Below, one piece after another: positions 5,176 through 38,597 of a stretch of 39,806 nt of DNA. The notes below the pieces were generated by a model, which ran no database searches, was not told the DNA's origin, and saw nothing but the letters and a program-made list of their open reading frames with translations. The stretch's first letter is position 1; each line of letters begins with the position of its first letter. The position numbers were made by a program, and so were the translations under genes. Source of the stretch: an uncultured Bacteroidota bacterium (GTDB taxonomy: Bacteria > Bacteroidota > Bacteroidia > Flavobacteriales > Flavobacteriaceae); NCBI GenBank assembly GCA_903889745.1, contig CAISYO010000201.1, positions 1 to 39,806 of the forward strand, read 5' to 3'.

Positions 5176-5239
5176 GGGAGTTGGTAGATGGGAGTTAGAA
5201 GTTTTTTACCCATTACCCAAAACCCATCACCCAATACCA
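5176..5239. repeat. Heptamer arrays: GGGAGTT words and ACCCAAT words
   Basis: 5176-5196 holds three GGGAGTT-like units. 5208-5239 reads ACCCATT, ACCCAAA, ACCCATC, ACCCAAT, ACC in strict 7-nt phase. The second block has four CCC tracts with 4-nt loops, a G-quadruplex motif on the minus strand. It ends 7 nt before the rnz start codon, so it would be in the mRNA leader. Confidence 0.85.
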
Positions 5240-5246
5240 GAATAAA

Positions 5247-6152
5247 TTGAAACTACAAATACTCGGCTGTTACGCTGCTACTCCCAGAACCATAACCAAT
5301 CCCACTTCACAAGTGTTAGAAATGAAAAACCATTTGTTTCTAATCGATTGTGGCGAAGGAACGCAAGTGCAATTACGCAAACACAAAATCAAGTTTTCTC
5401 GCATTAATCATATTTTTATATCGCATTTACACGGCGATCATTTTTATGGGTTAATTGGTTTGATTTCCACCTTTATGTTGCTCAATCGCGAGAACGATTT
5501 ACATGTGTATGGTCCTAAAGGAATTAAAGAAATCATTTTATTACAATTACGTGCTTCAGGTTCGTTTACTGGTTACAATTTGTATTTCCACGAACTAGAA
5601 TCGAAAGAAAGCGAAGTTGTTTTTGAAGATGACACGGTAGTTGTAAAGACTATTCCATTAAATCATAGAGTGTATACTAATGGGTTTTTGTTTCAAGAAA
5701 AACTAGGAAAACGCCATTTGAATATAGAAGCTGTTGCCAAATACAAAATTGAAAAAGTATATTTTGATAAAATAAAAGCAGGAGGTAGCGTTACCTTAGA
5801 TTCGGGAGAAGTAATTGGCAATGAGTTACTTTCATTACCACCAGATCCAACTAAAAGTTATGCGTTTTGTAGTGATACGCAATATGATGAATCGATTGTT
5901 CCCTTCATTAAAGAAGTTGATGTATTGTATCACGAAGCCACTTTTTTAGATTCGGAAGCACATTATACGGAAAAAACCAAACACGCTACGGCAAAAGAAG
6001 CGGCTCAAATTGCGAAGTTGGCCAATGTAAAGCAACTGATTTTAGGACATTATTCCACGCGATATGGTTCTATTGAACCGTTTAAAACAGAAGCACAAAC
6101 GATTTTTGAAAACGTACTTTTAGCCGACGATGGCAAAGAATTTGAGTTTTAA
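5247..6152 (+). CDS. rnz: Ribonuclease Z (tRNA 3' processing endonuclease)
   Basis: 301 residues of the metallo-beta-lactamase fold, tRNase Z short form. It cleaves tRNA precursors 3' of the discriminator base. The zinc motif SHLHGDH is at 59-65 (H60, H62, D64, H65). Further metal ligands are expected in CSDTQY and GHYSTRYG, both visible in the last third. The N-terminus KLQILGCYAATPRT is the family start, so the TTG at 5247 is the likely initiator. The next in-frame ATG would remove the first strand and the glycine-rich turn. A TTG start just after a C-rich repeat array may mean low expression. It is probably co-transcribed with the preceding small gene. Confidence 0.92.
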   Translation: MKLQILGCYAATPRTITNPTSQVLEMKNHLFLIDCGEGTQVQLRKHKIKFSRINHIFISHLHGDHFYGLIGLISTFMLLNRENDLHVYGPKGIKEIILLQLRASGSFTGYNLYFHELESKESEVVFEDDTVVVKTIPLNHRVYTNGFLFQEKLGKRHLNIEAVAKYKIEKVYFDKIKAGGSVTLDSGEVIGNELLSLPPDPTKSYAFCSDTQYDESIVPFIKEVDVLYHEATFLDSEAHYTEKTKHATAKEAAQIAKLANVKQLILGHYSTRYGSIEPFKTEAQTIFENVLLADDGKEFEF

Positions 6153-6157
6153 TTTTT

Positions 6158-6261
6158 TTAACACATAGACACATAGAAGAGTATAAATGAAAAGCTTTAT
6201 AGGTTTCATTTTACAAAGAAAACAAAGAATAATTCGTGATAATTAGTGAAATTCGTGTTTT
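6158..6261. repeat. Word repeats: ACACATAG and AATTCGTGAT types
   Basis: The spacer contains ACACATAG-ACACATAG (6160-6176 region), then ACAAAG twice, then AATTCGTGAT / AATTAGTGAA / ATTCGTG in a 10-nt period (about 6231-6258). It lies between rnz and the HAD gene. No promoter or terminator is obvious in it. Confidence 0.65.
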
Positions 6262-6282
6262 TTAAATTTTTAGAGTAAACCA

Positions 6283-6939
6283 ATGATACAAACTGTAATT
6301 TTTGATATGGATGGCGTAATTGTAGATACCGAACCGGTGCATCATTATGCGTATCACCAACATTTTAAACAATTAAACATCGAAGTTACTCCCGAAATGT
6401 ATACTTCATTTACCGGAAATTCTACGCGTAATATTTTTCAGAAATTAAAAGCACAATTCAATTTAGTAGAAGAGGTGGAAGATTTAATTTTAACCAAACG
6501 AAATCTTTTTAATGACGCTTTCGATTCAAAAGAAGATTTGTATTTAATTGATGGTGTTGAAGATTTAATTACGGATTTACACGCCAACGGGATGCAATTA
6601 ATTGTAGCTTCTTCAGCGTCAAATGTTACGATTAACCGAGTGTTTACCCGTTTTAATTTGCACCAATATTTTACCCATATTGTTTCGGGTGAAGATTTTC
6701 CAAAGTCAAAACCACATCCTGCCATTTTTGAACATGCAGCAAGTTTATCGATCGCTCCAAAAGAGAATTGCATCGTAATTGAAGACAGTACCAACGGAAT
6801 TCAAGCTGCCGTTTCCGCAGGAATTTTTTGCGTAGGCTACAATAGCTTTCACTCTAAAAATCAAGATTTATCTAAAGCTAACAAGGTCATTCAACACTTT
6901 AACGAATTGAATTTTGAGCGGGTTAAAAATTTAACTTAG
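6283..6939 (+). CDS. HAD-superfamily hydrolase, beta-phosphoglucomutase/phosphatase-like
   Basis: 218 residues with the HAD subfamily IA layout. Motif [13 protein letters not shown] is at 7-18 (nucleophile D8, acid D10). A helical cap follows at about 18-85. Motif II is a serine in IVASSASN, motif III a lysine in FPKSKPHP and motif [10 protein letters not shown]. Such enzymes dephosphorylate small phosphorylated metabolites or act as phosphomutases on sugar phosphates. The [11 protein letters not shown] start and SSASN are typical of the beta-phosphoglucomutase/YcjU-like group. The substrate cannot be told from the sequence. Its stop codon overlaps the stop codon of the converging photolyase-like gene. 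Confidence 0.87.
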
Positions 6940-8384: not shown

Positions 8385-8396
8385 TTTAATAGGTTT

Positions 8397-8425
8397 GTGG
8401 TTTATTGTTAGTAGTTTATTGTTTT
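8397..8425. repeat. GTTTATTGTTAGTA 14-nt double-heptamer repeat
   Basis: The spacer between the two photolyase genes holds GTTTATTGTTAGTA followed by GTTTATTGTTTTAA. The 14-nt period is twice the 7-nt period seen in other spacers. Confidence 0.5.
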
Positions 8426-8442
8426 AAACAAACTTAAATTAA

Positions 8443-9729
8443 TTAACCAACTGCTTCTTTGTATACTCTTAAGCAGCGTTCACGAGCTTCCTTGTGGTCA
8501 ACAATTGGTTTTGGATACCTATTGGTTTCCAATTCAGGAATCCATTTTTTAATGTATTCCAAGTCTTTATCAAATTTCTTAATTTGCTCTGTGGGATTGA
8601 AGATTCTAAAATACGGTGCCGCATCAACACCAGAACCTGCTGCCCATTGCCAATTACCCACGTTACTCGCCATTTCGTAATCCAACAATTTTTGGGCAAA
8701 GTAGGTTTCGCCCCAACGCCAATCAATGAGTAAATGTTTGCATAAAAAACTCGCCACAATCATTCGCACGCGATTGTGCATGTGACCCGTTGCTTTTAAT
8801 TCGCGCATGCCCGCATCGACAAAAGGATAACCGGTTTTTCCTTCGCACCATTTCTGAAACAAATCTTCGTTATTATCCCATTGAATCGCATCATATTTCG
8901 GTCTGAAACTTCCATTTTTGGTATGGGGAAAATGCCATAAGATTTGCATGAAGAATTCGCGCCAAATCAATTCGTTCCAAAACGTTTCGTTCTTTTCAGC
9001 AATCGCTTTTGCAATCATTTTACGAATGGAAACCGCACCAAAGCGTAAATAAATTCCTAAATAAGAAGTTTTATTTACCGCAGGAAAATTTCGTGTGGCT
9101 TCATAATTCTGAATTAAAGTTGTGGAAACATCAAAAGGCGTGACTTTTATGCTTGATGATTTAAAACCAATATCGTTCAACGATAAAAAAGGGTAGGAGT
9201 GTTGTGCAATTTTATCCAATTTTTCTTCCGATGGATAATGAGCTAATTTAATCTTCTTGAAGTTTTCTTTCCATTTTTTTGAATAGGGCGTAAACACCAC
9301 ATAAGGCGTTCCGTCATCTTTTACGACTTCGCTTTTTTCAAAAATAACTTGATCTTTTGAGGTCAAGAATGAAATTTCTTTACTTACAAATAACTGATTT
9401 AATTCTTTATCTCGATTGCGTGCATAAGGTTCGTAATCGTGATTGGTATACACTGCCGAAATTTTATTTTCAGTAATCAGTTTTTCAAATACTTCGATTG
9501 GCTTGCCGTGAAATACCGCTAACGATTTTCCAACGGTATTCAATCTCGCCTGAATTTTTTCTAATTGGGCATGAATAAACGAAACCCGAGCATCCTCTTT
9601 TGGAAGTTGCGATAAAATATGCTCATCAAAAATAAAAACAGGAAGCACTTCTTCAGCACTATTCAAAGCATGAAAAAGACCTACGTTATCTTCAATTCTT
9701 AAATCGCGTCTAAACCAAAAAATGTTCAT
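8443..9729 (-). CDS. phr: Class I CPD-type deoxyribodipyrimidine photolyase
   Basis: 428 residues. It repairs UV-induced pyrimidine dimers with blue light, using FAD and an antenna cofactor. The N-terminus NIFWFRRDLRIEDN is diagnostic. The FAD domain shows TSYLGIYLRFGAVSIR, WNELIWREFF, GKTGYPFVDAGMREL, MHNRVRMIVASFL and NWQWAAGSGVDAAPYFRIFNP, so the tryptophan and asparagine features of active photolyases are kept. The ATG at 9729 (MNIFWFRR) is preferred over an upstream in-frame TTG at 9747, which lies inside a TTCAAGT heptamer repeat and adds only MKQNKN. It is the third gene of the minus-strand cluster, 38 nt after the SDR gene. Confidence 0.94.
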   Translation of the reverse strand: MNIFWFRRDLRIEDNVGLFHALNSAEEVLPVFIFDEHILSQLPKEDARVSFIHAQLEKIQARLNTVGKSLAVFHGKPIEVFEKLITENKISAVYTNHDYEPYARNRDKELNQLFVSKEISFLTSKDQVIFEKSEVVKDDGTPYVVFTPYSKKWKENFKKIKLAHYPSEEKLDKIAQHSYPFLSLNDIGFKSSSIKVTPFDVSTTLIQNYEATRNFPAVNKTSYLGIYLRFGAVSIRKMIAKAIAEKNETFWNELIWREFFMQILWHFPHTKNGSFRPKYDAIQWDNNEDLFQKWCEGKTGYPFVDAGMRELKATGHMHNRVRMIVASFLCKHLLIDWRWGETYFAQKLLDYEMASNVGNWQWAAGSGVDAAPYFRIFNPTEQIKKFDKDLEYIKKWIPELETNRYPKPIVDHKEARERCLRVYKEAVG

Positions 9730-9742
9730 GTTTTTATTTTGT

Positions 9743-9763
9743 TTCAAGTTTAAGGTTACAAGT
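9743..9763. repeat. TTCAAGT heptamer array (3 units)
   Basis: TTCAAGT, TTAAGGT, TACAAGT in unbroken 7-nt phase in the short spacer between the SDR and photolyase genes. On the gene strand it reads ACTTGAA. Confidence 0.7.
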
Positions 9764-9767
9764 TGTT

Positions 9768-10466
9768 TTATCCGTTAACCAATAAAGTAGACATACCGCC
9801 ATCTACATGAAACACTTGTCCTGAAATCCAACTGCTTTTATCGCTTAATAAAAAAGTTGCCATCTGTGCGCTGTCTTCAGGTGTTCCAAATCGTTTCAAT
9901 GGATGACGCTCAGCAGATTTCTCTTGTTTGGTTTCGTTGTTCAAGAATTTATCAGCTAATGGTGTATCGGTTAAAGAGGGTGCAATTACGTTGACTCTAA
10001 TCTTAGGTGCATATTCTGCCGCCAAGGCTTTTGCAAATCCTTCAATAGCTCCTTTTGCAGCCGCAACACTAGTATGAAAAGGCATTCCCATTGTTGCTGC
10101 AACACTACTGAACAAAACAATACTCGATTGTTCGCCAGCGGTTAAATTAGGTAATACTGCCTGAATAACTTTGACCAAACTAATAAAATTAATCTGTAAA
10201 TCAGCTTCAAAAGCTTCAGGTTTTAAGCCTCTAAACGGACGCAAATTAATACTTCCTGGGCAATACACTAATCCATCAATAACAGCAGGTAGTTGAGAGG
10301 TGTCCAAACTATCAGTTGTTGCATCAAAGGGAATATGGGTAACGTTTAATCCCGCTAAATTTTCATTGGTTCTTGAAGCTACAAATAGCTTATTATCATT
10401 TTGAAGTTCTTTCGCAATGGCTAACCCAATGCCATAAGAACCGCCTATTAATAGTATATTTTTCAT
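9768..10466 (-). CDS. Atypical short-chain dehydrogenase/reductase (SDR)
   Basis: 232 residues with a Rossmann fold. The nucleotide-binding GGSYGIG is at 8-14, the catalytic-region serine is in LFSSVAATMG (120-121), K138 is in AAAKGAIEG, and the C-terminal PLKRFGTPED...ISGQVFHVDGG block is typical of SDRs. The usual YxxxK tyrosine is replaced by valine at 134, so standard oxidoreductase chemistry is doubtful. SDRs of this kind occur beside photolyase genes in other bacteria. One idea is a role in making or handling a pterin or flavin cofactor, but nothing in the sequence proves it. The gene is 3 nt from the SRPBCC gene upstream and is clearly co-transcribed with it. Confidence 0.85.
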   Translation of the reverse strand: MKNILLIGGSYGIGLAIAKELQNDNKLFVASRTNENLAGLNVTHIPFDATTDSLDTSQLPAVIDGLVYCPGSINLRPFRGLKPEAFEADLQINFISLVKVIQAVLPNLTAGEQSSIVLFSSVAATMGMPFHTSVAAAKGAIEGFAKALAAEYAPKIRVNVIAPSLTDTPLADKFLNNETKQEKSAERHPLKRFGTPEDSAQMATFLLSDKSSWISGQVFHVDGGMSTLLVNG

Positions 10467-16866: not shown

Positions 16867-17443
16867 AGGCTATTAATTTTTGAAACAGTAATTCGGTAGG
16901 TAATCCCACCACATTGGTATAGGAACCTTCAATTTTTGAAATGCCAATTAACCCAATCCAATCTTGTATGCCATAACTTCCGGCCTTGTCAAAGGGTTGG
17001 TATTGGTCTAAATAATACTGAATGGCGGCATCAGATAGTGCAGCAAAGGTAACTTTCGTAACACAATGAAACACTTCGGTTTTTTCTATGGATTTCAAAC
17101 AAACCGACGTAATGACTTCGTGGGTTTGATTCGATAATTTTTGTAACATCGCAAAGGCATCGGCGGCATCTGTTGGTTTGCCTAATGCTGTGCCGTTGAG
17201 CCAAACAATAGTATCAGAGGTTACTAATACATCGTTTTCTGCCAATTCGTTTTCAAAGGCATTTGCTTTTAGTTCGGCTAAATAATTGGTAATCTCTTCC
17301 GCTTTTAAATGATTGGGATATACTTCCTCAATTTCTTTTAATCGAATAGTAAACGGTATAGCCAAGTCTTTAAAAAACTGCTGCCTTCTGGGTGAACCCG
17401 AAGCTAATATGATGTTTTTATGGTGTACAATTTCTTTAAGCAT
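16859..17443 (-). CDS. maf: Maf family nucleotide pyrophosphatase
   Basis: 194 residues, the normal Maf length. The N-terminal signature ILASGSPRRQQFFKDL is at 12-27. The conserved ELKANAF, LVTSDTIVWLNG (metal-binding aspartate), GKPTDAADAFAMLQKLS and DKAGSYGIQDW...SYTNVVGLP blocks are present. Maf proteins hydrolyse non-canonical or uridine/thymidine nucleoside triphosphates to monophosphates as house-cleaning enzymes. The KAGSYGIQ form fits the dTTP/UTP (YhdE-like) group. It overlaps the UbiA-like gene upstream and the MscS gene downstream by 8 nt each, forming a compact operon. Confidence 0.93.
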   Translation of the reverse strand: MLKEIVHHKNIILASGSPRRQQFFKDLAIPFTIRLKEIEEVYPNHLKAEEITNYLAELKANAFENELAENDVLVTSDTIVWLNGTALGKPTDAADAFAMLQKLSNQTHEVITSVCLKSIEKTEVFHCVTKVTFAALSDAAIQYYLDQYQPFDKAGSYGIQDWIGLIGISKIEGSYTNVVGLPTELLFQKLIAYV

Positions 17444-18353
17444 GTTGTATGGAGTAAATTATAACGGCAATGGAAAACAGACTAGTAATCAATACAAATT
17501 GGAGTACGCGATTCAATACTATAAATTCTTTAGCGCTCGTACTGTTGATTAATTTGAGTCCTACAAATAAAAGCGGCCCTAGCATAGTAATTAAAATATA
17601 ATACAAGGCCAGGTTTAATTCAAACAAATAGTTCTTGCAGTAATACAGTATCATAGCAAGAATAAGTATTACGAATCCACCTGTTATTATTTTTGTTTTT
17701 AGCAGCCCTAATCGTGTGGCAAGGGTAGTATTGCCTACCATTTCATCGTTTTGTTTGTTTTTTAAGTCGTTAACCAGTTCTTTGAGTAGTACCAAAAAGA
17801 AACTAAAAATAGCATAATCAATAAGAATGCCAAATACTTCACCCATGCGCACTTTATTAGTTGCATCAGTAGCCGGAAAAACATCAAACAAAGCAATAGT
17901 TACAATGCTAATAGCTACTAACAGCGCAGTGATGCCATTGTTGATAAACGGAATTTGTTTTAAGTTGGTAGCTTGAATATAGAGTAGGGTAGCGACCAAT
18001 ACAAAAAGGGAAGCAAAAGTAGGTTTGTAAATTACATTGGACAAGTAAAAACCAATTCCCACACCGACAATGGTTAAACCAATGTACCAATTATAAGCAC
18101 TTGTTTCAGTAATTGTATTACCTACCAATCTACTTTGTGGACGAATGATCTCATCCTCTTCCTGATTTACAATGTGTTGCATCACGGCTCCACCTGCAGC
18201 AATACAAACCGTTGACAACACTAAAAGTAAGTAGTTGAAATCGGTTAGCGCTAAATCAATATAGGATTGCGTTAAAAATAAATACCGAAATACCAATAGC
18301 ATCGTGGCAAGCAAGAGTAGGTTTTGGTATTTTATGAGTTTTAAGTATTTCAT
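17436..18353 (-). CDS. UbiA-superfamily prenyltransferase-like membrane protein with altered Asp motifs
   Basis: 305 residues with about eight to nine hydrophobic spans and the overall UbiA pattern. Family members transfer prenyl groups using Mg-bound prenyl diphosphate. They need an NDxxDxxxD motif after TM2 and a second Asp-rich motif. Here motif one reads QHIVNQEEDEIIRP (59-72), so two usual acids are Gln and Asn and only the last Asp is kept. Motif two reads KELVNDLKNKQND (191-203), also weakened. Flavobacterial relatives that I recall are annotated geranylgeranylglycerol-phosphate geranylgeranyltransferase. The present protein may have changed or lost activity. It leads the UbiA-maf-mscS-PIG-L run and overlaps maf by 8 nt. 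Confidence 0.82.
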   Translation of the reverse strand: MKYLKLIKYQNLLLLATMLLVFRYLFLTQSYIDLALTDFNYLLLVLSTVCIAAGGAVMQHIVNQEEDEIIRPQSRLVGNTITETSAYNWYIGLTIVGVGIGFYLSNVIYKPTFASLFVLVATLLYIQATNLKQIPFINNGITALLVAISIVTIALFDVFPATDATNKVRMGEVFGILIDYAIFSFFLVLLKELVNDLKNKQNDEMVGNTTLATRLGLLKTKIITGGFVILILAMILYYCKNYLFELNLALYYILITMLGPLLFVGLKLINSTSAKEFIVLNRVLQFVLITSLFSIAVIIYSIQHA

Positions 18354-18363
18354 TTATTTTTGT

Positions 18364-18391
18364 TTCAAGTTTCAGGTTTCAGGTTCAAAGT
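18364..18391. repeat. TTCAAGT/TTCAGGT heptamer array
   Basis: TTCAAGT, TTCAGGT, TTCAGGT, TCAAAGT: four consecutive units in exact 7-nt phase, just upstream of the UbiA-like gene. Confidence 0.75.
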
Positions 18392-18401
18392 TTACTTATT
18401 C

Positions 18402-18612
18402 CATTTCAACATTCGTTGTTCCTTGTTCAATTTAATCCATTTAATCTTTTAATCTGTGGCTAATAAAATTAACGTTTAGTTTGACCTACTGTTAAGCCTC
18501 TCTTATATGGTTAATTATGTAACACAAAGTCACACAAAGTCAATCACAAAGTTTCACAAAGTTCTTCCAACATCTAACATCCATCTTCCTTCATCCATCA
18601 TCCCTCATTCCT
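18402..18612. repeat. Mosaic of word repeats between the UbiA-like and KdsC-like genes
   Basis: No gene is seen here. In order: CATTCGTTGTTCCTTGTTCA (complement of an array at 20283-20322); TTAATC-type words ending AATCTGTGGC; TTGACCTACTG (also at 20329-20339); the left arm of a 78-nt inverted repeat (18489-18566) with ACACAAAGTC decamers; then CATCTAACATCCATC-type words up to 18612. A short ORF across this region is only translated repeat. Confidence 0.75.
18489..18566 (+). repeat. Left arm of a 78-nt imperfect inverted repeat
   Basis: Matches the reverse complement of 19981-20058 without gaps and with about 7 mismatches. It starts CTGTTAAGC and contains two ACACAAAGTC units followed by CACAAAGTTTCACAAAG. 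The two arms bracket the KdsC-like and DUF2520 genes. Confidence 0.85.
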
Positions 18613-18614
18613 CA

Positions 18615-19142
18615 TCAATCAAACTTCGCATCAAAATGCTCCATCCATTTGCCTTGTACTTTCATGACTTGTTCAATGACATCGCGCACAGCGCCTTTTC
18701 CGCCTTCAATGTGTGAAACATAGTTGGAGATGCCTTTGATTTCTGGAACTGCATTTTGTGGACAAGTTGGTAGGCCTACTAATTGCATTACGTGATAATC
18801 TGGAATGTCATCGCCCATATACAATACGTTTTCTGGAGCAATGCCATAGATATCGGTGAATTCCTTGAAGGTTTCTACTTTATTGGGTACGCCCAAATAG
18901 ATATCGGTGATGCCTAAATTGCGTAAGCGCACTCGCACTCCTTCATTACTTCCGCCCGAAATAATACAGACAGTGTAGCCATTTTCAAGTGCAGCTTTCA
19001 TAGCATAACCGTCTCTAATGTTCATGTTGCGCAACATTTCACCAGTTGGCGTTACATGTATGGTGCCATCGGTTAATACCCCATCGACATCAAAGACGAA
19101 GGTGGTAATTTGGTTCATGATTTCTTTATAACTTTTTGACAT
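18615..19142 (-). CDS. KdsC-type HAD phosphatase (KDO 8-phosphate phosphatase-like)
   Basis: 175 residues, the usual size of cap-less C0 HAD phosphatases of the KdsC family. Motif I FVFDVDGVLTDGT has D18 and D20. GYAMKAALENGYTVCIISGG contains motif II. K near 'VPNKVETF' and the motif IV region NVLYMGDDIPDYHVMQLVGL follow. KdsC releases phosphate from KDO 8-phosphate in LPS core synthesis. Related enzymes act on KDN-9-P or other sugar acids, so the substrate is not certain. The start at 19142 (MSKSYKEIMNQITTF) overlaps the end of the DUF2520 gene by 17 nt, showing tight coupling. Confidence 0.88.
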   Translation of the reverse strand: MSKSYKEIMNQITTFVFDVDGVLTDGTIHVTPTGEMLRNMNIRDGYAMKAALENGYTVCIISGGSNEGVRVRLRNLGITDIYLGVPNKVETFKEFTDIYGIAPENVLYMGDDIPDYHVMQLVGLPTCPQNAVPEIKGISNYVSHIEGGKGAVRDVIEQVMKVQGKWMEHFDAKFD

Positions 19143-19884
19143 GTTGTATCGATTGTGTGAGTAATTGATAAATTGTTTTGTATTCGGGATTTTCTATGAA
19201 ATCTAAATGTTTTTCTATCGTTTTGGTGTCGTTTCTTAAAGCTGGACCCGTTTGTGCCGCACTAGGTGCAAGGGACTCAATTTTACGAGCGGTTTCCTGG
19301 ATTAACGGATGCAGTACCTCAAACGGTATGTGGTGTTCCGTACAAATTTCGTGCCCAATGTGGTACAAATGATTCACAAAATTACAGACAAACACAGCGG
19401 CAACATGTAAACTCTTGCGTTGTTCAGAAGAAAGGGAAACTACTTTTTGCGCAATGCAATGCCCTAATTTTTCTAAAAGTTGGTAATCTTCTTCGTGTTG
19501 CACTTCGATGCAAATAGGAATTTCAGCAAAATCAATTGCCTTGCCTTTGGTAAAGGTTTGTAACGGATAAAACACGCCCTTTCTATTGTTGTCTTGCAAC
19601 ACGGAAATTCCCGAAGACCCAGAAGTATGCACTACCAGTCTGTTGTTAAACGGCAATTGTGCGGCTACCTCTGCAATAGCATCATCTGACACCGCTATAA
19701 TATAAACGTCTGCTTCGGTGATTTTTTGATAGTCATTCGTGATTTTATCCATTGGAAGCAATGCCGCTAAGTGACTTGGATTACGAGCTACCGCTTGCAC
19801 CAAATCTACTTCTTGAGCCTGCAAAAACACTTGTATTAAGTGTTGCGCTACATTCCCGGAACCAATGAGTACGACTTTTATCAT
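19126..19884 (-). CDS. Rossmann-fold DUF2520 protein
   Basis: 252 residues from the ATG at 19884. The N-terminal Rossmann domain has GSGNVA at 8-13 (MIKVVLIGSGNVAQHL) and VYIIAVSDDAIAEVA, like ProC and F420-NADP reductases. The C-terminal all-helical DUF2520 domain contains EQRKSLHVAAVFVCNFVNHLYHIG. The family probably binds NAD(P) but has no proven reaction. The frame is open upstream to 20061, but that extension translates intergenic heptamer repeats (recurring LPTP and THTK-like residues) and does not resemble the family. The start was therefore set at MIKVV. It is co-transcribed with the KdsC-like gene. Confidence 0.9.
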   Translation of the reverse strand: MIKVVLIGSGNVAQHLIQVFLQAQEVDLVQAVARNPSHLAALLPMDKITNDYQKITEADVYIIAVSDDAIAEVAAQLPFNNRLVVHTSGSSGISVLQDNNRKGVFYPLQTFTKGKAIDFAEIPICIEVQHEEDYQLLEKLGHCIAQKVVSLSSEQRKSLHVAAVFVCNFVNHLYHIGHEICTEHHIPFEVLHPLIQETARKIESLAPSAAQTGPALRNDTKTIEKHLDFIENPEYKTIYQLLTQSIQHVKKL

Positions 19885-19922
19885 GGTGCTAAAATAGTGA
19901 TTTTTGGGGAAAAAGACAAGAG

Positions 19923-19985
19923 GGGAGATGGGAGTTGGGAGATGGGAGATGGGAGTTGGGAGTTGGGAGTTGGGAGTTGGGAGAG
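19923..19985 (+). repeat. Nine-unit GGGAGTT/GGGAGAT heptamer array with G-quadruplex motif
   Basis: Nine consecutive units begin GGGAG and end TT, AT or (last) AG, with no length variation over 63 nt. Nine GGG tracts separated by 4-nt loops meet the canonical G-quadruplex pattern on the plus strand. It lies 38 nt upstream of the DUF2520 start codon. Confidence 0.95.
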
Positions 19986-20058
19986 CTTTGTGAAACTTTG
20001 TGTGTGACTTTGTGTGACTTTGTGTTACATAATAAACCAAATAAGAGATGCTTAACAG
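19981..20058 (-). repeat. Right arm of the 78-nt imperfect inverted repeat
   Basis: Reverse complement of 18489-18566 (about 90% identity, ungapped). On the plus strand it has TGTGACTTTG decamers. It directly abuts the G-rich array at 19923-19985. Confidence 0.85.
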
Positions 20059-20342
20059 CATGACAAACGAGACGTGAAAGTATTTAGTATTACGATTTAC
20101 AATCGAATACTTACCTTATATGAACTTTAACTTACTTCTACGCAATACAACTTAAATTAACTTATATGACTTATATGGTAAATAATTATTTAACCACAAA
20201 GTACACAAGGAAGGCACAAAGTTCACTATAATGTGATGCTTCCTTACGTCAGCATGACAATATAGACGTTGATTTCTCTATGAACAACGAACAACGAATT
20301 GGGAACAACGAATGTTGAAATGTAAACTTGACCTACTGAAAA
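20059..20342. repeat. Mosaic of word repeats upstream of pheT's 3' end
   Basis: This gene-free stretch holds: AGCATGACAAACGAGACG and the similar AGCATGACAATATAGACG (20057 and 20253 regions); a 58-nt AACTT-decamer block (20119-20176) shared with 23913-23970; CACAAAGTACACAAGG and GGCACAAAG (20195-20222); and CGAACAA heptamers (20283-20320). TTGACCTACTG is at 20329-20339. No terminator or promoter was recognised. Confidence 0.7.
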
Positions 20343-22803: not shown

Positions 22804-22809
22804 CTTTTA

Positions 22810-23014
22810 AAAATTAGAAATTAAAAAGTAAAAATTAAAAAGTATTCAGTGGTCGGTGTGGAGTGTGTAGTTGGGAGTTTGTAGATGGGTGATGGGAGAG
22901 GGAAGTTGGGAGTTGGGAGTGGGGAGTTGGGAGTGGTCATTGAAAAAAAAGTAAAAAGTAAAAAGTAAAAAGTAAAAGTGTTCAGTCACAGTGGTCAGTG
23001 GTCAGTCTCAGTGT
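22810..23014. repeat. Composite heptamer array: AAAAAGT, GGGAGTT, AAAAAGT, GGTCAGT
   Basis: Successive blocks: AAAAAGT-like words (22821-22844), GTGGAGT/TGGGAGT words with many GGG tracts (22871-22936, G-quadruplex motif), four exact AAAAAGT units (22946-22973), then GTTCAGT, GGTCAGT, GGTCAGT and relatives (22980-23014). All fit N4AGT. It fills the spacer between the DUF2452 gene's 3' end and pheT. Confidence 0.9.
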
Positions 23015-23785: not shown

Positions 23786-23832
23786 CGTATAATTTTGGAT
23801 AAAAAAAAATTTTGATGATGGGTGATGAGAGT

Positions 23833-23895
23833 GGTCAGTTATCAGTGGTCAGTGTTCAGTTGTCAGTGGGGAGTTTGGAGATGAGAGTAGGGAGT
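23833..23895 (+). repeat. Nine-unit heptamer array that switches from GGTCAGT to GGGAGT words
   Basis: GGTCAGT, TATCAGT, GGTCAGT, GTTCAGT, TGTCAGT, GGGGAGT, TTGGAGA, TGAGAGT, AGGGAGT: 63 nt in unbroken 7-nt register. Eight of nine units end AGT. This is the clearest evidence that the two word types belong to one structure. Confidence 0.9.
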
Positions 23896-23912
23896 ATAGA
23901 CTAATATTCTTT

Positions 23913-26402: not shown

Positions 26403-26735
26403 ATGAAATATATTTTAATTATTGCGTTTGTATGTGTAAGTAGCTTCGCAAATGCTCAAAAAGTGTTTAGTACGCAATATGCGAACCAAGCAGAAATTAA
26501 AGTTTTTGTGGTGAAATATGAAAACCAAGCGGACTTAAAAGTCTTTAAGGTGAAGTATGAAAACCAAGTGGGTGAGAATAATGGTAAGTGGTTTTTTTCT
26601 ACATATGAAAACCAGGCGAAAAAGAAAATTCATTTTGTGGATTACGAAAATCAAGCGGATTTAAAAATTTTCTTTGTAGCCTATGAAAATCAAGCAGGTT
26701 GGAGAAACAATGAAAAGAAGTATTTGATGTATTAG
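26403..26735 (+). CDS. Secreted DUF6150-type repeat protein
   Basis: 110 residues. A signal peptide (MKYILIIAFVCVSSFANAQ) is followed by six repeats of about 13 residues of the form V-F-x-V-x-Y-E-N-Q-A-D-L-K, from about residue 20 to 96. The third repeat is longer (VGENNGK). The protein ends WRNNEKKYLMY, a tail typical of the DUF6150 proteins that I recall from Bacteroidota. The repeats alternate hydrophobic and polar residues and probably build beta strands in a small sheet or solenoid. Exported, function unknown. The 39-nt DNA repeats are partly conserved. The likely promoter is a near-match (TAAATTTA, about 26380). Confidence 0.85.
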   Translation: MKYILIIAFVCVSSFANAQKVFSTQYANQAEIKVFVVKYENQADLKVFKVKYENQVGENNGKWFFSTYENQAKKKIHFVDYENQADLKIFFVAYENQAGWRNNEKKYLMY

Positions 26736-26742: not shown

Positions 26743-26762
26743 GATAATTGATAATTGATAAT
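26743..26762. repeat. GATAATT heptamer triplet
   Basis: GATAATT, GATAATT, GATAAT in exact 7-nt phase, between the converging DUF6150 and bestrophin genes. Confidence 0.7.
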
Positions 26763-26767
26763 AGAAA

Positions 26768-29756: not shown

Positions 29757-29757
29757 G

Positions 29758-29915
29758 TTTAGTATTCAGTGTTCAGTTTTTAACATTTTTTTGAAACACA
29801 TAGTCACATCAGTAATACTAACTGTAGATTTAGAGCGTTTCACTTTTCAGAGTTAACATAGCAAATCTGTGTGAATCCGATAAATCTGTGTCATCTGTGT
29901 TCTAAAACCAAAAGC
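29758..29915. repeat. Word repeats: ATTCAGT heptamers, ACACATAGTCACAT, AATCTGTGTC decamers
   Basis: ATTCAGT, GTTCAGT (29762-29775 region) directly precede the recG start. ACACATAGTCACAT follows. AAATCTGTGTGAATCCG, TAAATCTGTGTCATCTGTGTTC (29863-29902) repeat at roughly a 10-nt step. The spacer separates the divergent recG and M1 peptidase genes. Confidence 0.7.
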
Positions 29916-32741: not shown

Positions 32742-32777
32742 TAAAATAGATTAAATCACCTATTGACTATGAAAGAA

Positions 32778-35108
32778 ATGCAACGGTATATTAGCCAATT
32801 AAACGAAGCGCAACAAGCACCTGTTCTCCAGAAGGAAGGCCCCATGATTGTTATTGCGGGAGCGGGTTCTGGTAAAACACGTGTATTAACCGTTCGTATT
32901 GCTAATTTAATGAGTCTGGGTGTTGATGCTTTTAATATTTTGGCCTTAACATTTACCAACAAAGCAGCACGTGAAATGAAAAAACGTATTGCTGATATTG
33001 TGGGAACAAACGAAGCTAAGAACCTTTGGATGGGAACTTTTCACTCGGTTTTTGCGAAGATTTTACGAAGCGAAGCCGATAAATTAGGGTACCCTTCAAA
33101 CTTTACCATTTATGACACTCAAGATTCTGTTCGATTATTAGGGGCTATCATTAAAGAGATGCAATTGGATAAAGATATATACAAACCCAAACAAATTTTA
33201 GGTCGGATTTCTTCTTATAAAAATTCGTTGATTACGGTTAAAGCTTATTTCAATAATCCCGAATTGCAAGAAGCTGATGCAATGAGTAAAAAACCGCGTA
33301 TGGGCGAAATTTATCAAAATTATGTGGAGCGATGTTTTAAATCGGGTGCCATGGATTTTGATGATTTATTATTGAAAACCAATGAATTATTGAATTTGTA
33401 CCCTGATGTTTTAGCGAAATATCAAGACCGTTTTCGCTATATATTAGTTGATGAGTACCAAGATACCAATCATTCGCAGTATCTAATTGTCCGTGCGTTA
33501 TCTGATCGTTTTCAAAATATTTGCGTGGTAGGTGATGATGCTCAAAGTATTTATGCTTTTCGAGGTGCCAACATCAACAATATTTTAAATTTTCAGAAGG
33601 ATTACGAAAATGTGCAATTGTATCGTTTGGAACAAAATTATCGTTCGTCAAAAAATATTGTAGAAGCAGCGAATAACGTTATTGATAAGAATAAAACCAA
33701 GTTGGATAAAATTGTTTGGACATCTAATGCTGATGGTCCAAAAATTAAAGTACACCGAAGTTTAACCGATGGTGAAGAAGGTCGTTTTGTAGCCGCTACT
33801 ATTTTTGAGCAAAAGATGCAAAATCAAATGCTTAATGGCCAATTTGCTATTTTGTATCGTACCAATGCGCAATCTCGTGCCATGGAAGATGCCTTGCGTA
33901 AACACGATATTCCGTATCGAATATATGGAGGTTTGTCTTTTTATCAACGAAAGGAAATTAAGGATGTTTTGGCTTATTTACGTTTGGTAATTAATCCGAA
34001 AGATGAAGAAGCATTGGTGCGTGTGATTAATTATCCAGCTCGAGGAATAGGTGACACCACGGTAGAAAAATTAACGGTTGCAGCCAATCATTACAAGCGT
34101 TCTATTTTTGAAGTAATGGAACACATTGATAAGATTGATTTGAAGCTGAATTCGGGTACAAAAAATAAAATCTCTGATTTTGTTACGATGATTAAAAGTT
34201 TTCAAGTGATTAATGAAAATCAGGATGCGTTTTTCTTAACTGATCATGTAGCTAAGAAAACCGGATTGGTTCAAGAATTGAAAAAAGACGGAACGCCTGA
34301 AGGCATTGCTAAAATTGAAAACATCGAAGAGCTACTCAACGGTATCAAAGACTTCACCGAAGGGCAAAAGGAAATCGATGGCGCTAGAGGTGCTTTAGAC
34401 GAGTTTTTAGAAGATGTAGCTTTGGCAACCGACTTAGATAAAGACACTGGGGACGATGACCGAGTAGCCTTAATGACCATTCACTTGGCAAAAGGATTAG
34501 AATTTCCACATGTGTTTATTGTAGGATTAGAAGAAGATTTATTTCCTAGTGCAATGAGTCTAAATACCCGAAGCGAATTAGAAGAAGAGCGACGTTTGTT
34601 CTATGTTGCTTTAACTCGTGCTGAACATCAAGCGTATTTAACTTATGCGCAATCGCGCTATAGATGGGGAAAATTAGTCGATAGCGAACCTTCGCGTTTT
34701 ATAGAAGAAATTAACGATGAATATTTAGAATATTTAAACCCAGTGGATTCGGGTTATCGCTACAAACCAGTTATGGATATTGATGTTTTTGGGGATATTG
34801 ATAAATCGAAATTACGATTAGCTAAACCTACTGCTGGAACACCACCAAAGAGCCCTTTAGCCCCCGAAGGCGGAATCAATATTCCAAATATTAGAAAACT
34901 TAAACCAGTTTCTAGTAATACAGGAGGTTCCAATATATCCGATTCAAATTTAGCGGTTGGAAATATCGTTATGCATGAGCGTTTTGGAAAAGGACAAATT
35001 GTAAGCATGGAAGGCTTTGGAGCCGACAAAAAAGCGGAAATACGTTTTGATATTGGTGGCTTGAAGAAGCTGCTGTTGCGCTTTGCAAAGTTGAATGTGA
35101 TTGGGTAA
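32778..35108 (+). CDS. uvrD: UvrD/PcrA superfamily 1A DNA helicase
   Basis: About 776 residues, the normal size. It unwinds DNA 3' to 5' in nucleotide-excision and mismatch repair and removes recombination protein from DNA. Walker A AGAGSGKTR is at about 27-35. TFTNKAAREMKKRI (motif Ia), YILVDEYQDTNHSQY (motif II), VVGDDAQSIYAFRGA (motif III), YRLEQNYRSS (motif IV), VALMTIHLAKGLEFPHVF (motif V) and RRLFYVALTRAEHQAYL (motif VI) are all present. The C-terminal segment VGNIVMHERFGKGQIVSMEG is the Tudor-like domain of UvrD/PcrA. ATGs at 32769 and 32778 are both possible. 32778 (MQRYISQLNEAQ) was chosen because relatives start like this and a purine-rich stretch precedes it. Confidence 0.93.
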   Translation: MQRYISQLNEAQQAPVLQKEGPMIVIAGAGSGKTRVLTVRIANLMSLGVDAFNILALTFTNKAAREMKKRIADIVGTNEAKNLWMGTFHSVFAKILRSEADKLGYPSNFTIYDTQDSVRLLGAIIKEMQLDKDIYKPKQILGRISSYKNSLITVKAYFNNPELQEADAMSKKPRMGEIYQNYVERCFKSGAMDFDDLLLKTNELLNLYPDVLAKYQDRFRYILVDEYQDTNHSQYLIVRALSDRFQNICVVGDDAQSIYAFRGANINNILNFQKDYENVQLYRLEQNYRSSKNIVEAANNVIDKNKTKLDKIVWTSNADGPKIKVHRSLTDGEEGRFVAATIFEQKMQNQMLNGQFAILYRTNAQSRAMEDALRKHDIPYRIYGGLSFYQRKEIKDVLAYLRLVINPKDEEALVRVINYPARGIGDTTVEKLTVAANHYKRSIFEVMEHIDKIDLKLNSGTKNKISDFVTMIKSFQVINENQDAFFLTDHVAKKTGLVQELKKDGTPEGIAKIENIEELLNGIKDFTEGQKEIDGARGALDEFLEDVALATDLDKDTGDDDRVALMTIHLAKGLEFPHVFIVGLEEDLFPSAMSLNTRSELEEERRLFYVALTRAEHQAYLTYAQSRYRWGKLVDSEPSRFIEEINDEYLEYLNPVDSGYRYKPVMDIDVFGDIDKSKLRLAKPTAGTPPKSPLAPEGGINIPNIRKLKPVSSNTGGSNISDSNLAVGNIVMHERFGKGQIVSMEGFGADKKAEIRFDIGGLKKLLLRFAKLNVIG

Positions 35109-35142: not shown

Positions 35143-35149
35143 TAATTCT

Positions 35150-35360: not shown

Positions 35361-35393
35361 CAAAATGAATCTAGTACGAAGTAATTTACATAA

Positions 35394-35453
35394 TCAGGTT
35401 TCAGGTTCTTTTTGTTAACTTGAAACATGAAACGAAAAAAAACTTGAAACAAA
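35394..35453. repeat. TTCAGGT words and their complement forming a hairpin
   Basis: TCAGGTTTCAGGTT (35394-35407) is followed 9-10 nt later by AACTTGAAACATGAAAC (35417-35433), and again by AACTTGAAAC (35441-35450). GTTTCAGGTT and AACTTGAAAC can pair over 10 bp with one G-U. It lies immediately upstream of the Sua5/YciO gene, in its likely leader. Confidence 0.65.
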
Positions 35454-35459
35454 ATTAAT

Positions 35460-36080
35460 ATGGCAGAATTCATAAAAATATACGAAGATAAACCTAGCGA
35501 AGCGGCTATTAAAAAGGTAGTTGATGTTTTAAAAAACGGCGGTTTAGTAATTTACCCAACCGATACCGTTTATGGTTTAGGATGTGATATTACCAATTCT
35601 CGTGCCTTAGAAAGATTAGCTAAATTGAAAGGAATTAAACTGGAAAAAGCGAATTTTTCTTTTGTGTGTTCTGGTTTGAGTCATCTTTCCGATTATGTAA
35701 AGCAAATTGACACTGCTACTTTTAAAATATTAAAACGGGCGCTACCTGGTCCTTATACGTTCATTTTGCCAGGTAATAATGATTTGCCAAAAGAATTCAG
35801 AAAGAAACAAACGGTAGGTATTCGTGTTCCTAATAACAATATTGCGCTACAAATTGTAGAAATGCTTGGAAATCCAATAGTATAAACTTCTATTCATGAT
35901 GAAGATGATGTTATAGAATATTCTAGTGATCCTGAATTAATTTTTGAAAAATGGAATAATAAAGTTGATGTAGTTATCGATGGAGGTTATGGTGACAATG
36001 TAGCCTCAACCATTATTGATTTAACAGGACACGAACCTGAAGTTATTCGAGAAGGCAAAGGGAGTTTGGATATATTATAA
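35460..36080 (+). pseudogene. Sua5/YciO/YrdC family (threonylcarbamoyl-AMP synthase-like) gene with an in-frame stop
   Basis: The reading frame from ATG 35460 encodes MAEFIKIYEDKPSEAAIKKVVDVLKNGG..., with the YrdC signature VIYPTDTVYGLGCDI and KRALPGPYTFIL, TVGIRVPNN. It stops at TAA 35883-35885 after 141 codons. The same frame continues without gap as TSIHDEDDVIEYSSDPELIFEKW... to a second TAA at 36078-36080, giving 206 codons in all, the full YciO-like length. A family serine (GNPIVSTS) probably stood at the stop, so one base change (TCA to TAA) explains it. Sua5/TsaC makes the t6A tRNA precursor and is usually essential. Loss would need another copy, or the stop may be a sequencing error. 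A strong terminator follows. Confidence 0.85.
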
Positions 36081-36114
36081 AAAAAACGCTTTCAATTGAA
36101 AGCGTTTTTTTTAT
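36081..36114 (+). terminator. Intrinsic terminator, near-perfect palindrome
   Basis: AAAAAACGCTTTC and GAAAGCGTTTTTT pair with AATT at the tip (36081-36110) and a further TT follows. The A/T flanks on both sides allow function on both strands, so it could also end the converging OmpA gene. Confidence 0.9.
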
Positions 36115-36122
36115 TTCTGTAT

Positions 36123-36959: not shown

Positions 36960-36976
36960 GTGATTGATTATTTTTA

Positions 36977-36984
36977 CAAAGTTA
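36977..36984 (-). promoter_or_regulatory. Bacteroidota -7 element (TAACTTTG) for the OmpA-like gene
   Basis: The minus strand TAACTTTG matches TAnnTTTG, 18 nt upstream of the ATG at 36959. Confidence 0.5.
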
Positions 36985-37027
36985 TAAAGAAGTTTAAGGA
37001 AATAAAAATTTTTAGCATAAACTCTTG

Positions 37028-38023
37028 TTAAAACAATTCTGCAAACACCTTGCCATTTTTTAAAAAATAGCGCACAACAATACTGTTTATCATGAAATAA
37101 TTGGATTTTTGATTGGTTGTACGTTTGTTATAATACACTTTTGCTAGCTTATAAAAAGCAAAATGAGCGTGTATAATTGCCAAACAATGCTTGAATTTTC
37201 CTTTGAAGATAAATTGGACACCCGCTAATCCGTCTAAGACTAACCGAATGAAAAGTATCGGTAATAGTTGGTTTTTCGGAAGATTCTTAGTTAACATTAA
37301 TAATGAATTTCTAAAATTCAAGTAGGTTTTCATTGGGTTTCCCTCGTTTAGTGTAGCGCCCCCAACATGGTATACAACTGATTTTGAAGTATATTTTATT
37401 TTGTATCCTAGATTAAATGCTCTCCAACACAAATCAATTTCCTCTTGGTGTGCAAAGAAAGAGTCGTCAAACCCGTTTAATTTTCGATACACTTCTTTTC
37501 TAATAAAAAAACAGGCTCCGGTTGCCCAAAATATTTCGATTTCATCCTCATACTGCTGTTTGTCTTCTTCAACGGTATCGAAAATTCGACCACGGCAAAA
37601 TGGATATCCAAATTTATCTATAAAACCGCCAGCCGCTCCAGCATATTCAAAATGGGTTTTCTTTTTGTAATCTAATACTTTAGGTTGAATGATAGCAACT
37701 TCAGGTTGGTCATCAAATATGTTTAAAATAGGAGTAAGCCAATTTTCAGTCACTTCAATATCAGAATTCACTAAAGCATAATATTTTTCCTCTACAAACT
37801 GTAAAGTTTGATTATAGCCTGTTGCAAAACCAAAGTTTCCGGTATTTTGAATAATTTTCACTGAAGGAAATTGACTTTTAATCACTTCAATTGAATTGTC
37901 AGTAGAAGCATTGTCAGCTACATAAATGTTTGCTTCATCAGAAAAAGCAAGTACCGAAGGCAAAAACTGTTCAAGTAATTTGGCTCCGTTCCAATTTAAT
38001 ATGACTACTGCTATTTTTTTCAA
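37028..38023 (-). CDS. Family 2 glycosyltransferase (rhamnosyltransferase-like)
   Basis: 331 residues with a GT-A fold. MKKIAVVILNWNGAKLLEQFLPSV is the nucleotide-binding start, followed by VADNASTDNS (37-44), NFGFATGYNQ (63-72), and LVNSDIEV with the metal-binding D-region at 85-90. The acceptor-side blocks are IFWATGACFFIRKEVYRKLNGFDDSFFAHQEEIDLCWR (with the ED-type catalytic base). These are typical of WbbL/RfbF-like enzymes that add sugars to cell-surface glycans. No membrane spans are obvious, though the C-terminus (LPILFIRLVLDGLAGVQFIFKG) is hydrophobic and may sit on the membrane. Acceptor and sugar are unknown. Confidence 0.92.
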   Translation of the reverse strand: MKKIAVVILNWNGAKLLEQFLPSVLAFSDEANIYVADNASTDNSIEVIKSQFPSVKIIQNTGNFGFATGYNQTLQFVEEKYYALVNSDIEVTENWLTPILNIFDDQPEVAIIQPKVLDYKKKTHFEYAGAAGGFIDKFGYPFCRGRIFDTVEEDKQQYEDEIEIFWATGACFFIRKEVYRKLNGFDDSFFAHQEEIDLCWRAFNLGYKIKYTSKSVVYHVGGATLNEGNPMKTYLNFRNSLLMLTKNLPKNQLLPILFIRLVLDGLAGVQFIFKGKFKHCLAIIHAHFAFYKLAKVYYNKRTTNQKSNYFMINSIVVRYFLKNGKVFAELF

Positions 38024-38034
38024 TTGATTTTTGT

Positions 38035-38064
38035 TTCAGGTTTAATTTGTTTCAAGTTTCAAGT
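38035..38064. repeat. TTCAGGT / TTCAAGT heptamers between GT2 and HsdR-N genes
   Basis: TTCAGGT (38035-38041), a 9-nt variant, then TTCAAGT, TTCAAGT (38051-38064) followed by TATATGACTT, which resembles the decamer word at 20165 and 23960. Confidence 0.75.
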
Positions 38065-38095
38065 TATATGACTTTTAAAATATCTTCAGCATTCA

Positions 38096-38539
38096 TTATT
38101 CATGTGCTGGTAATTCGTTTAAAAATATATATTTCTCATTCTCAAAATCCATTTGGCAAAAATAATGATTTAGTCCATTGGTTACCATTAAATATTTTGC
38201 TTTCAAAACTAAATTATAACGGGCAATTTGATCAAATGTGTTTTGGGAAATTGGAACCTCTGGTGCTTTGCATTCAATGAGTAAAAATATCTCTCCATTA
38301 GGCTGAAATACAACTACATCATATCGTTTACTTAAATTATTAATTTTAATTAATTTTTCAACATTAATATATGATTTTGGAAATTTTTTATCTTGTAATA
38401 AAAACTGAACCGTATGCTGACGTACCCATTCTTCTGGTGTAAGCAGTATAAATTTTTTTCTGATTTCATCAAAGATAGCTACTTTATTTTCACTATTTTT
38501 GAACCGAAAGGAATAAACTGGAAAGTTCAACTTTTTCAT
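38096..38539 (-). CDS. HsdR N-terminal domain (PD-(D/E)XK nuclease-fold) protein
   Basis: 147 residues, only the nuclease-like fold. The core RYDVVVFQPNGEIFLLIECKAP carries D74, E89 and K91, the PD-(D/E)XK catalytic pattern. The preceding RQHTVQFLLQD and the helix ISQNTFDQIARYNLVLKAKYLMVTNG complete the HSDR_N_2-type domain. Lack of a helicase domain and of methylase genes means this is not a restriction system. Stand-alone copies next to holA are a regular arrangement in Bacteroidota. A role in DNA repair or replication is possible but unproven. It diverges from holA across a heptamer array. Confidence 0.88.
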   Translation of the reverse strand: MKKLNFPVYSFRFKNSENKVAIFDEIRKKFILLTPEEWVRQHTVQFLLQDKKFPKSYINVEKLIKINNLSKRYDVVVFQPNGEIFLLIECKAPEVPISQNTFDQIARYNLVLKAKYLMVTNGLNHYFCQMDFENEKYIFLNELPAHE

Positions 38540-38564
38540 GAAACAAAAATAGTTATTTTATAGT

Positions 38565-38597
38565 AACTGCCAACTGCTACTGACCACTGAATACTAA
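38565..38597. repeat. AACTGCC/ACTGACC heptamer array upstream of holA
   Basis: AACTGCC, AACTGCT, ACTGACC, ACTGAAT, ACT in 7-nt phase. Its complement is the ATTCAGT/GGTCAGT word seen upstream of recG and pheT. It ends 4 nt before the holA start codon and therefore overlaps the expected ribosome-binding and leader region. Confidence 0.85.

Follow-up and report, generated by a model that had tools for sequence, protein, structure and literature searches.

The window analysed here is a 39,806-nt stretch of DNA, contig C201 of a 2.28-Mb metagenome-assembled genome (MAG; G000) in 331 contigs; its closest affinity is to Flavobacterium, named records of which have RecG proteins up to 95% identical to that of the window. 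Between its genes, among them recG, pheT, and the gene for DNA polymerase III delta, lie arrays of short words that follow one another at a step of 7 nt. Arrays were located with Tandem Repeats Finder (TRF) or with a scan for self-match at lag 7, for which dinucleotide shuffles served as control. Gene ends were taken from a simple open reading frame (ORF) caller with ATG starts and, mostly, at least 90 aa (60 or 80 in some scripts); as a consequence, some starts and short genes are wrong. An initial annotation of the window had listed arrays in its spacers, and we found an array at, or a few bases from, every listed coordinate. TRF or the lag-7 scan recovered them, except for two short ones, at 9743 and 38565, that were recognized by eye.

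Heptad arrays in the window and across the genus

In the 24 spacers of the window (5085 bases), the self-match at lag 7 was 0.360 against 0.2995 in shuffled sequence (z 9.9). The excess recurred at lags 14 (z 6.4) and 21 (z 4.4), and lag 6 also reached z 4.4; the coding sequence of the window had no peak at lag 7. Six spacer arrays scored at least 12 at lag 7, compared to none at lags 4-6 and 8-9, and none at lag 7 in one shuffle. The genome-wide excess at lag 7 expected by the initial annotation was only partly borne out within the MAG itself. In 69 spacers from the 11 readable contigs of 20 sampled, the mean excess was weak (z 1.3), yet five arrays scored at least 12 versus none in shuffled sequence. 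Array density thus varies along the genome.

Among relatives the same excess was strong. We used 80 named recG loci, 69 of them titled Flavobacterium, with 997 spacers; these relatives are not mutually independent, and duplicates were partly collapsed in several counts. Lag 7 was the strongest of lags 2-30 (z 13.5), and lag 7 had 79 arrays, lag 8 had 37, and lag 6 had 10 (3, 4, and 2, respectively, in one shuffle). A word-blind count scored any 4-mer core K that occurred three times at step 7 (K-N3-K-N3-K) within 40 nt of a gene border. It covered 863 3' and 1007 5' borders from the recG loci and MAG contigs, with identical 30-mers collapsed. Step 7 gave 88 core matches at 3' borders and 65 at 5' borders, versus five each after shuffling. 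Step 8 gave 30 versus 2 (3') and 27 versus 5 (5'), and steps 5, 6, 9, and 10 were at background. A 6-nt step, seen in an earlier and wider count (20 versus 3 and 14 versus 12), fell to background in this cleaner set (5 versus 4 and 8 versus 7) and is not claimed. The constant 7-nt unit of the initial annotation holds as the dominant step, with a minority of arrays stepping by 8. Arrays of the latter kind, with CTAAGNNN words, begin at or near the recG stop in L102, L104, L093, and L086 (e.g., TAAGTTACTAAGCTTCTGAG) as a step-8 sister of the heptads, and short ATTGCC-like runs of step 6 lie 5' of the recG starts in L049 and L050.

Most words had initially been read as N4AGT. Two mosaic arrays of the window do keep AGT in phase. 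Between 22807 and 23006, the best phase holds 11 AGT in 28 units, with 20 AGT altogether (the maximum in 1000 shuffles was 7), and a single 7-nt frame runs across the first two thirds of 22807..22977. Between 23816 and 23903, all AGTs share one phase (shuffle maximum 5), and the four bases before them vary (GGTC, TATC, GTTC, TGTC, GGGG, TGAG, and AGGG). AGT is not the common denominator, since N4AGT fits only some arrays; the commonest step-7 core at the word-blind borders is GATT (21 matches), and CAGT has one match. A fixed step with changing content, also part of the initial description, was seen again across the genus as well as in a second family of its class.

A one-pattern survey of the phylum gave matches in 83 of 148 genomes, with a pattern that is partly unspecific: in several genomes a reversed control matched as often or more often. 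Some genomes of the phylum (G163, G151, G171, and G186) held more than 200 matches to this reversed control, and other heptad words may therefore abound there. A typed heptamer query gave no match in plasmids.

Position and polarity at gene borders

The initial annotation missed that both the orientation and the position of the arrays are tied to gene borders. The median distance from array to border was 5 nt, and arrays occurred at 138 of 1717 3' borders and 104 of 1941 5' borders (CAGT-chosen loci, described below, included). On the outward strand, read 5' to 3' away from the gene, the words are G-rich and C-poor, at stops and starts alike. In the word-blind set, matches with more G than C outnumbered the opposite 59:10 at stops and 39:10 at starts, and GATT outnumbered AATC 21:0. 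With one vote per border, the ratios were 35:6 (3') and 27:6 (5'), and with related borders collapsed 25:6 and 11:4; after four genome samples were added (1387 + 1584 borders), the collapsed votes were 41:10 and 22:6. An earlier, wider core count (95:18 and 72:18) had taken in the window and 11 stretches of genome G019 picked near CAGT hits. The word-blind recount without these gave weaker evidence at 5' borders; our odds were not altered, since the outward rule rests on the 3' side and on the CAGT sets.

The CAGT set was drawn with the pattern CAGTN3CAGTN3CAGT from 80 chosen regions in 12 genomes of the genus or family, with gene context ignored and orthologues uncollapsed. Its 83 clusters comprised 12 in called ORFs, 3 without a flank, and 68 in spacers, of which 57 pointed outward and 11 toward the gene. 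Outward orientation held for 48 of the 50 clusters no more than 20 nt from a border, and all 12 arrays that close to a 5' border were directed toward the start codon in the sense of the published TAACTGA repeats (see below). A second set came from 20 regions in three genomes of another family of the same class (f22). Its 25 clusters (19 intergenic, 5 in ORFs, and 1 without a flank) were outward in 15 of the 19 intergenic cases and in 11 of 12 within 20 nt of a border.

With CAGT-chosen loci included, outward to inward ratios were 134:20 up to 25 nt from the border, 32:8 at 26-60 nt, 17:11 at 61-120 nt, and 11:8 beyond 120 nt. In 54 flank-collapsed spacers, left halves were outward 30:8 and right halves 25:13; both halves were outward in 8, both inward in none, and mixed in 14. 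Comparison of whole words shows the polarity less cleanly than the core counts: among 8301 pairs, 415 matched in the same orientation and 329 as reverse complements, compared to 198 for shuffled words in a slightly larger pair set. Array-free 3' flanks have no outward bias (G 0.113, C 0.135), and array-free 5' flanks are mildly C-poor outward (C 0.088 and G 0.146 in the first 10 nt). Spacers between divergent genes are poor in arrays; they hold 6 of 50 arrays scoring at least 15 and 13 of 88 scoring at least 12, versus 250 of 1022 spacers. The main rule is outward orientation together with position at the border, and this geometry is not set by the spelling of the words.

Where two opposite arms are adjacent, the G-rich arm is on the left and the C-rich arm on the right in 21 of 21 cases, which represent 15 unrelated sites after grouping by flank; one pair lies more than 200 nt from both borders. 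The two arms of one spacer may differ in word (L230, L216, and L199). Array spacers fold somewhat better than matched controls (median z -2.2 versus -1.0, p 0.03; 84 and 168 spacers), and some are near-perfect hairpins, such as L100:4085-4161 (z -10.4). A strong stem (z < -3) was found in 37% of array spacers and 26% of controls, so not in most members, and hairpins account for a minority of arrays.

Along the coding bases 5' of the stop, the 138 array-bearing 3' borders have a lag-7 match at baseline level; the increase begins at the third base of the stop codon. TAG stops occur at 56 of these borders, compared to 369 of 1717 overall (CAGT-chosen loci included), and the excess persists within gene families of the recG loci (17 versus 11.0 expected, z 2.3). 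The register of CAGT arrays is locked to the stop: 20 of 39 fall in one of the seven phases (p 5e-8), and 24 of the 39 stops are TAG. In the other family, 8 of 12 share one phase, different from that of the first set, and 8 of 12 stops are TAG. The possibility that the stop codons derive from the arrays by read-through was ruled out, as the lag match does not enter the coding sequence.

Of the window's own arms (Table 1), 15 of 16 point outward. Their borders were assigned by hand, and four arms differ by only one or two bases between G and C. For gene 19126, position 19896 served as the border where ATG 19884 is the proper one; no sign changed. The sole inward arm, 22989..23006, continues the long arm that starts from the other border of its spacer.

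Table 1. Heptad arms in the spacers of the window
Position	Strand	Arm and words	Located by; remarks
5172..5203	+	3' arm of gene 4836-5168(+), GGGAGTT/GGTAGAT words	lag-7 score 9.6, without a TRF row of its own; begins 3 nt past the stop; 14 G and no C on the outward strand
5206..5238	-	5' arm of RNase Z gene 5247-6152(+), reading GGGTGAT/GGGTAAT outward	TRF, lag scan, polarity count; forms a G-left/C-right pair with 5172-5203
9741..9765	+	short arm GTTTCAAGTTTAAGGTTACAAGTTG between photolyase/cryptochrome-like (8443-9747, -) and SDR (9768-10466, -) genes	by eye; absent from TRF and lag-scan lists; overlaps the called TTG start
18362..18392	+	5' arm of 17436-18353(-), GTTTCAA/GTTTCAG	TRF, lag scan, polarity count
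18566..18614	-	3' arm of KdsC-like gene 18615-19142(-), outward GATGTTGGATG words	TRF, lag scan; 0 nt to the stop
19923..19983	+	5' arm of gene 19126-(-), (GGGAGTT/GGGAGAT)n	TRF; 38 nt from downstream ATG 19884
20282..20298	-	GAACAAC array	TRF; pheT stop at 44 nt; polarity weak, with 4 G to 3 C outward
22807..22977	+	mosaic arm upstream of pheT(-), AAAAAGT, CAGTGGT, GGGAGTT, AAAAAGT words	lag scan, polarity count
22989..23006	+	CAGTGGT x2.6 adjoining the pheT mosaic	TRF; inward relative to the nearer border, 23038
23816..23903	+	mosaic arm, AGT ending 9 of 13 units in one phase	lag scan
26743..26765	+	3' arm of DUF6150 gene 26403-26735(+), GATAATT x3	TRF
29758..29780	+	5' arm of recG(-), TTTAGTATTCAGTGTTCAGT	lag scan; 1 nt from the start codon
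35113..35145	+	3' arm of UvrD/PcrA helicase gene 32763-35108(+), GTTTCAGGTTTAATG words	lag scan
35417..35452	-	5' arm of Sua5/YrdC-domain gene 35460-35885(+), outward TTTCAAG words	polarity weak at 5 G to 4 C
38049..38065	+	5' arm of glycosyltransferase gene 37028-38023(-), GTTTCAA	TRF; polarity weak at 3 G to 2 C
38565..38592	-	5' arm of DNA polymerase III delta gene 38601-39605(+), outward ATTCAGTGGTCAGT	short, by eye

The longest ORF of gene 19126 (19126-20061, -) spans the GGGAGTT array and translates there as ...PTPNSQLPTP..., so the true start likely lies downstream and the start called within the array is likely wrong. A CACTGAATACTAAA word stands directly 5' of the start codons of both recG (29757-29775) and the DNA polymerase III delta gene (38575-38600). 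A second type of repeat, ACACAAAGTC / ACTTTGTGTG with a step near 10, occurs at 18522-18562 and 19995-20025; it adjoins heptad arms in inverse orientation, and resembling CACAAAGT blocks occur in the spacers of L027 and L036. The DUF6150 gene contains a 39-nt direct repeat of 2.4 copies (26476-26568; TRF).

Changes of spelling

In a few orthologous spacers, arrays differ between relatives as blocks. An array-free allele is common to the window, L025, L027, and L032 at one divergent spacer, where L034 and L036 instead have an array of the GATGTTG type and L028 one of the AGGTAAA type; the flanks are kept, although the left flank of L028 is the most diverged of the members. At the recG stop, L045 and L055 have GGTTGCG words and L049 has GGTGATT-type words; elsewhere, also in the opposite arm, these spacers hardly differ. 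L103 and L104 likewise differ by the swap of one arm, while the other is kept. In an orthologous group of 13 members, most carry an AATC arm on the start side, and the arm on the stop side is of the GATTT, GAGTTAT, or AAGTC type. Relatives, with one genome per species, also differ by indels of 7 and 14 nt, lengths that occur along with many others; a 14-nt indel separates L026 from L025 and L027.

Within arrays, we compared the 4-nt core and the triplet between cores from unit to unit. In the CAGT arrays of f22, the next core was kept at 64 of 80 bases, whereas the triplets agreed at 39 of 120 versus the 0.65 expected under uniform decay (p 2.5e-13). Step-7 GATT arrays behaved similarly, with a triplet agreement of 0.43 versus 0.64 (p 9e-6; 17 seeds, relatives uncollapsed). 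Triplets in Flavobacterium CAGT arrays were no freer than expected (0.48 versus 0.40). A general split into core and variable bases was weak by column statistics (0.685 versus 0.64), with 74 of 126 exceeding their own null; it was not seen with all seeds taken together or in the CAGT arrays of Flavobacterium, and was strong only in the f22 and GATT sets. The initial view that slippage of one unit cannot explain the arrays is thus upheld by the block swaps and by the free triplets of these two sets. It does not extend to the pooled seeds (see below), the Flavobacterium CAGT arrays, or the 7- and 14-nt indels; for many arrays, triplets that decay uniformly mean that slippage and mutation suffice.

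Many unrelated words occur within one genome, and genomes have only modest dialects (41 of 328 same-genome word pairs versus 71 of 947, p 0.0085). The exact unit TAACTGA is not the norm: the triplet TAT stands between CAGT cores in 10 of 131 cases, and one window unit reads TATCAGT.

Known heptamers and the origin of the arrays

The initial annotation knew no named system of this kind in Flavobacteriaceae and gave the short tandemly repeated repetitive (STRR) heptamers of cyanobacteria, which are intergenic, as the nearest analogy; heptamers of the GGGAATC type in Xanthomonas and Nostoc and of the TAACTGA type in Beggiatoa are, however, in print (PMC4692102, PMC4679880). Rehm et al. (2015; PMC4692102) describe GGGAATC in Xanthomonas and GGGGA(C/T)T in Nostoc PCC7120 as 7-nt, mostly intergenic repeats. 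These favor the antisense strand within 50 bp upstream of an ORF or the sense strand within 50 bp of a stop, which some overlap; they form convergent pairs (70 and 75 cases in two xanthomonads) and are under-represented between divergent ORFs. The arrays studied here share these traits: a 7-nt unit mainly in spacers, a G-rich strand that is antisense upstream of starts and sense downstream of stops, convergent inverted pairs, and rarity between divergent genes. The Xanthomonas and Nostoc repeats, as described there, have one G-tract word type per genome and were studied for quadruplexes, whereas the Flavobacterium arrays have many words and no G3 motif at borders, and additionally an 8-nt step, a register to the stop codon, and block swaps.

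TAACTGA direct repeats were reported from Beggiatoaceae, cyanobacteria, and five Bacteroidetes (MacGregor 2015; PMC4679880), in a study that followed this single word. In BOGUAY, 147 of 170 sets were directed toward a start codon; F. litoralis had 12 forward before starts and one reversed just past a stop, a placement that equals the outward rule (PMC4679880). The repeats were mixed with related 7-mers and read as possible sites of RNA regulators (PMC4679880). The reverse complement of TAACTGA is CAGTTAT up to rotation, hence its likeness to the CAGT arrays. Among simple sequence repeats of 5-11 nt, heptanucleotides were the commonest class in most genomes, and slippage with a 7-nt polymerase footprint was proposed (Mrazek et al. 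2007, as cited in PMC4679880 and PMC4692102); the citing passages mention no orientation rule. The geometry found here thus matches, over many words, that of Rehm et al. (PMC4692102) and mostly that of MacGregor (PMC4679880). In a literature coverage that lacked most subscription journals, we found no description of an outward rule that holds regardless of word, nor any of Flavobacterium border arrays.

We favor, with a probability of about 0.4, the reading that these are one word-independent class of 7-nt-step arrays at gene ends, with the G-rich strand mostly outward, grown by short realign-and-copy cycles on the outward 3'-ended strand. A gap, nick, or break in a spacer would expose a 3' end, which would be extended outward from the remaining gene edge. 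The nascent end would slip back or jump to a short homology, often a 4-nt core, and the next 7-nt step would be copied, so that slippage and template switching would both act as realign-and-copy cycles inside spacers. The added strand would be C-poor. An opposite arm could arise by fold-back copying or by a second extension from the other edge, which would leave only G-left/C-right pairs, and selection would discard products that enter coding sequence. Such copying in 7-nt steps brings the step, the polarity at both gene ends, the arm order, the independence of the arms, and the block swaps into one scheme.

The main rival is close behind this copying process, though in itself still doubtful: slippage with a 7-nt optimum would act anywhere in spacers, and selection would keep arrays that are G-rich outward because a G-rich RNA entering the gene, as leader or antisense, would be harmful. 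The 7- and 14-nt indels fit it, as do the concentration of polarity near borders, the depletion of arrays between divergent genes, and the C-poor array-free 5' flanks. Array-free 3' flanks are unbiased, yet arrays at 3' borders are at least as polar as those at 5' borders; the kept cores and free triplets in f22 and the block swaps are not slippage of one unit; and the invariant arm order includes a pair far from any border. Less probable is that the arrays are functional sites, in which a protein would recognize a short core at 7-nt intervals on RNA or DNA that leads out of a gene, as an exit or insulation signal. With words outward at both ends, any transcript leaving a gene has the same word sense, the f22 and GATT arrays do keep a core with free triplets, and binding by S1, Csp, or Csr was proposed for TAACTGA (MacGregor 2015; PMC4679880). 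The many unrelated words per genome, their swaps at orthologous borders, and the presence of arrays at only a minority of borders speak against such sites.

That the arrays are arms of RNA or DNA hairpins, as bidirectional terminators or stabilizers, appears improbable. Opposite arms always stand in stem order and some spacers are near-perfect hairpins, but folding is only modestly better than in matched controls, the two arms may use different words, and the many single outward arms without a partner mean that hairpins are not the whole story. G-quadruplex formation, considered for the GGGAATC-type repeats, is very improbable as the force that drives or selects the arrays. The Xanthomonas and Nostoc repeats share the geometry (PMC4692102), and the window's GGGAGTT arrays contain GGG tracts. 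A G3+ motif was found in none of 164 border arrays, a set that leaves out the window's GGG arrays by position or score, and a G2+ motif in eight, yet GATT and GTTT words are polar; quadruplexes as a general cause are contradicted here.

Several observations weigh against the copying process. When all border seeds were pooled, triplet agreement was 0.50, exactly the 0.50 expected from uniform decay and as slippage with selection would have it. The polarity at 5' borders is thin after related borders are collapsed, and the fading of single-arm polarity away from borders is also predicted by selection. Whole-array scoring in four larger samples gave 29 arrays with more G and 10 with more C, with p < 0.05 only in G019, partly because one lag-7 segment may cover both arms. 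The scarcity between divergent genes needs selection. Gene ends show no excess of erosion, with the C-terminal end off the family mode in 9 of 49 proteins with 3' arrays versus 102 of 377. The scheme names no copying enzyme. Ku (PF02735) is present in 5 of 40 relatives; it was found in G017, and not in the window's MAG or the array-bearing G019, G021, G025, G029, G033, and G037, so Ku end joining is not needed. In 200 kb of a cyanobacterial plasmid, from Gloeothece (NC_014533; L245 and L266-L268), 103 spacers contained seven arrays at lag 7 but had none at lags 4-6 and 8-12; unlike those of Flavobacterium, six of these arrays are 71-376 nt away from the closest called gene. The Microcystis TAACTGA sets break the orientation rule (PMC4679880).

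A broader version of the copying process is speculative and rather unlikely: flavobacteria and their kin would extend exposed 3' ends at gene edges with C-poor 7-nt words, telomere-like and with no fixed template, and the same process would have given rise to the heptamers of Xanthomonas, Nostoc, and Beggiatoa. Every cycle would re-anneal on a short core and add a fresh step, and borders would gain outward arms of their own, often registered to the stop.

In the literature consulted, the cause of heptamer abundance in bacteria is still open, and the published words were each discussed by their spelling, as quadruplex or RNA-binding site. Here, step, position, and polarity are constant in a single genus and the spelling is not, which shifts the explanation from the word to a process or to a constraint at gene edges. 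In oriented arrays, swapped in blocks among related species, the rewriting of spacer DNA between genes has left its own natural record.

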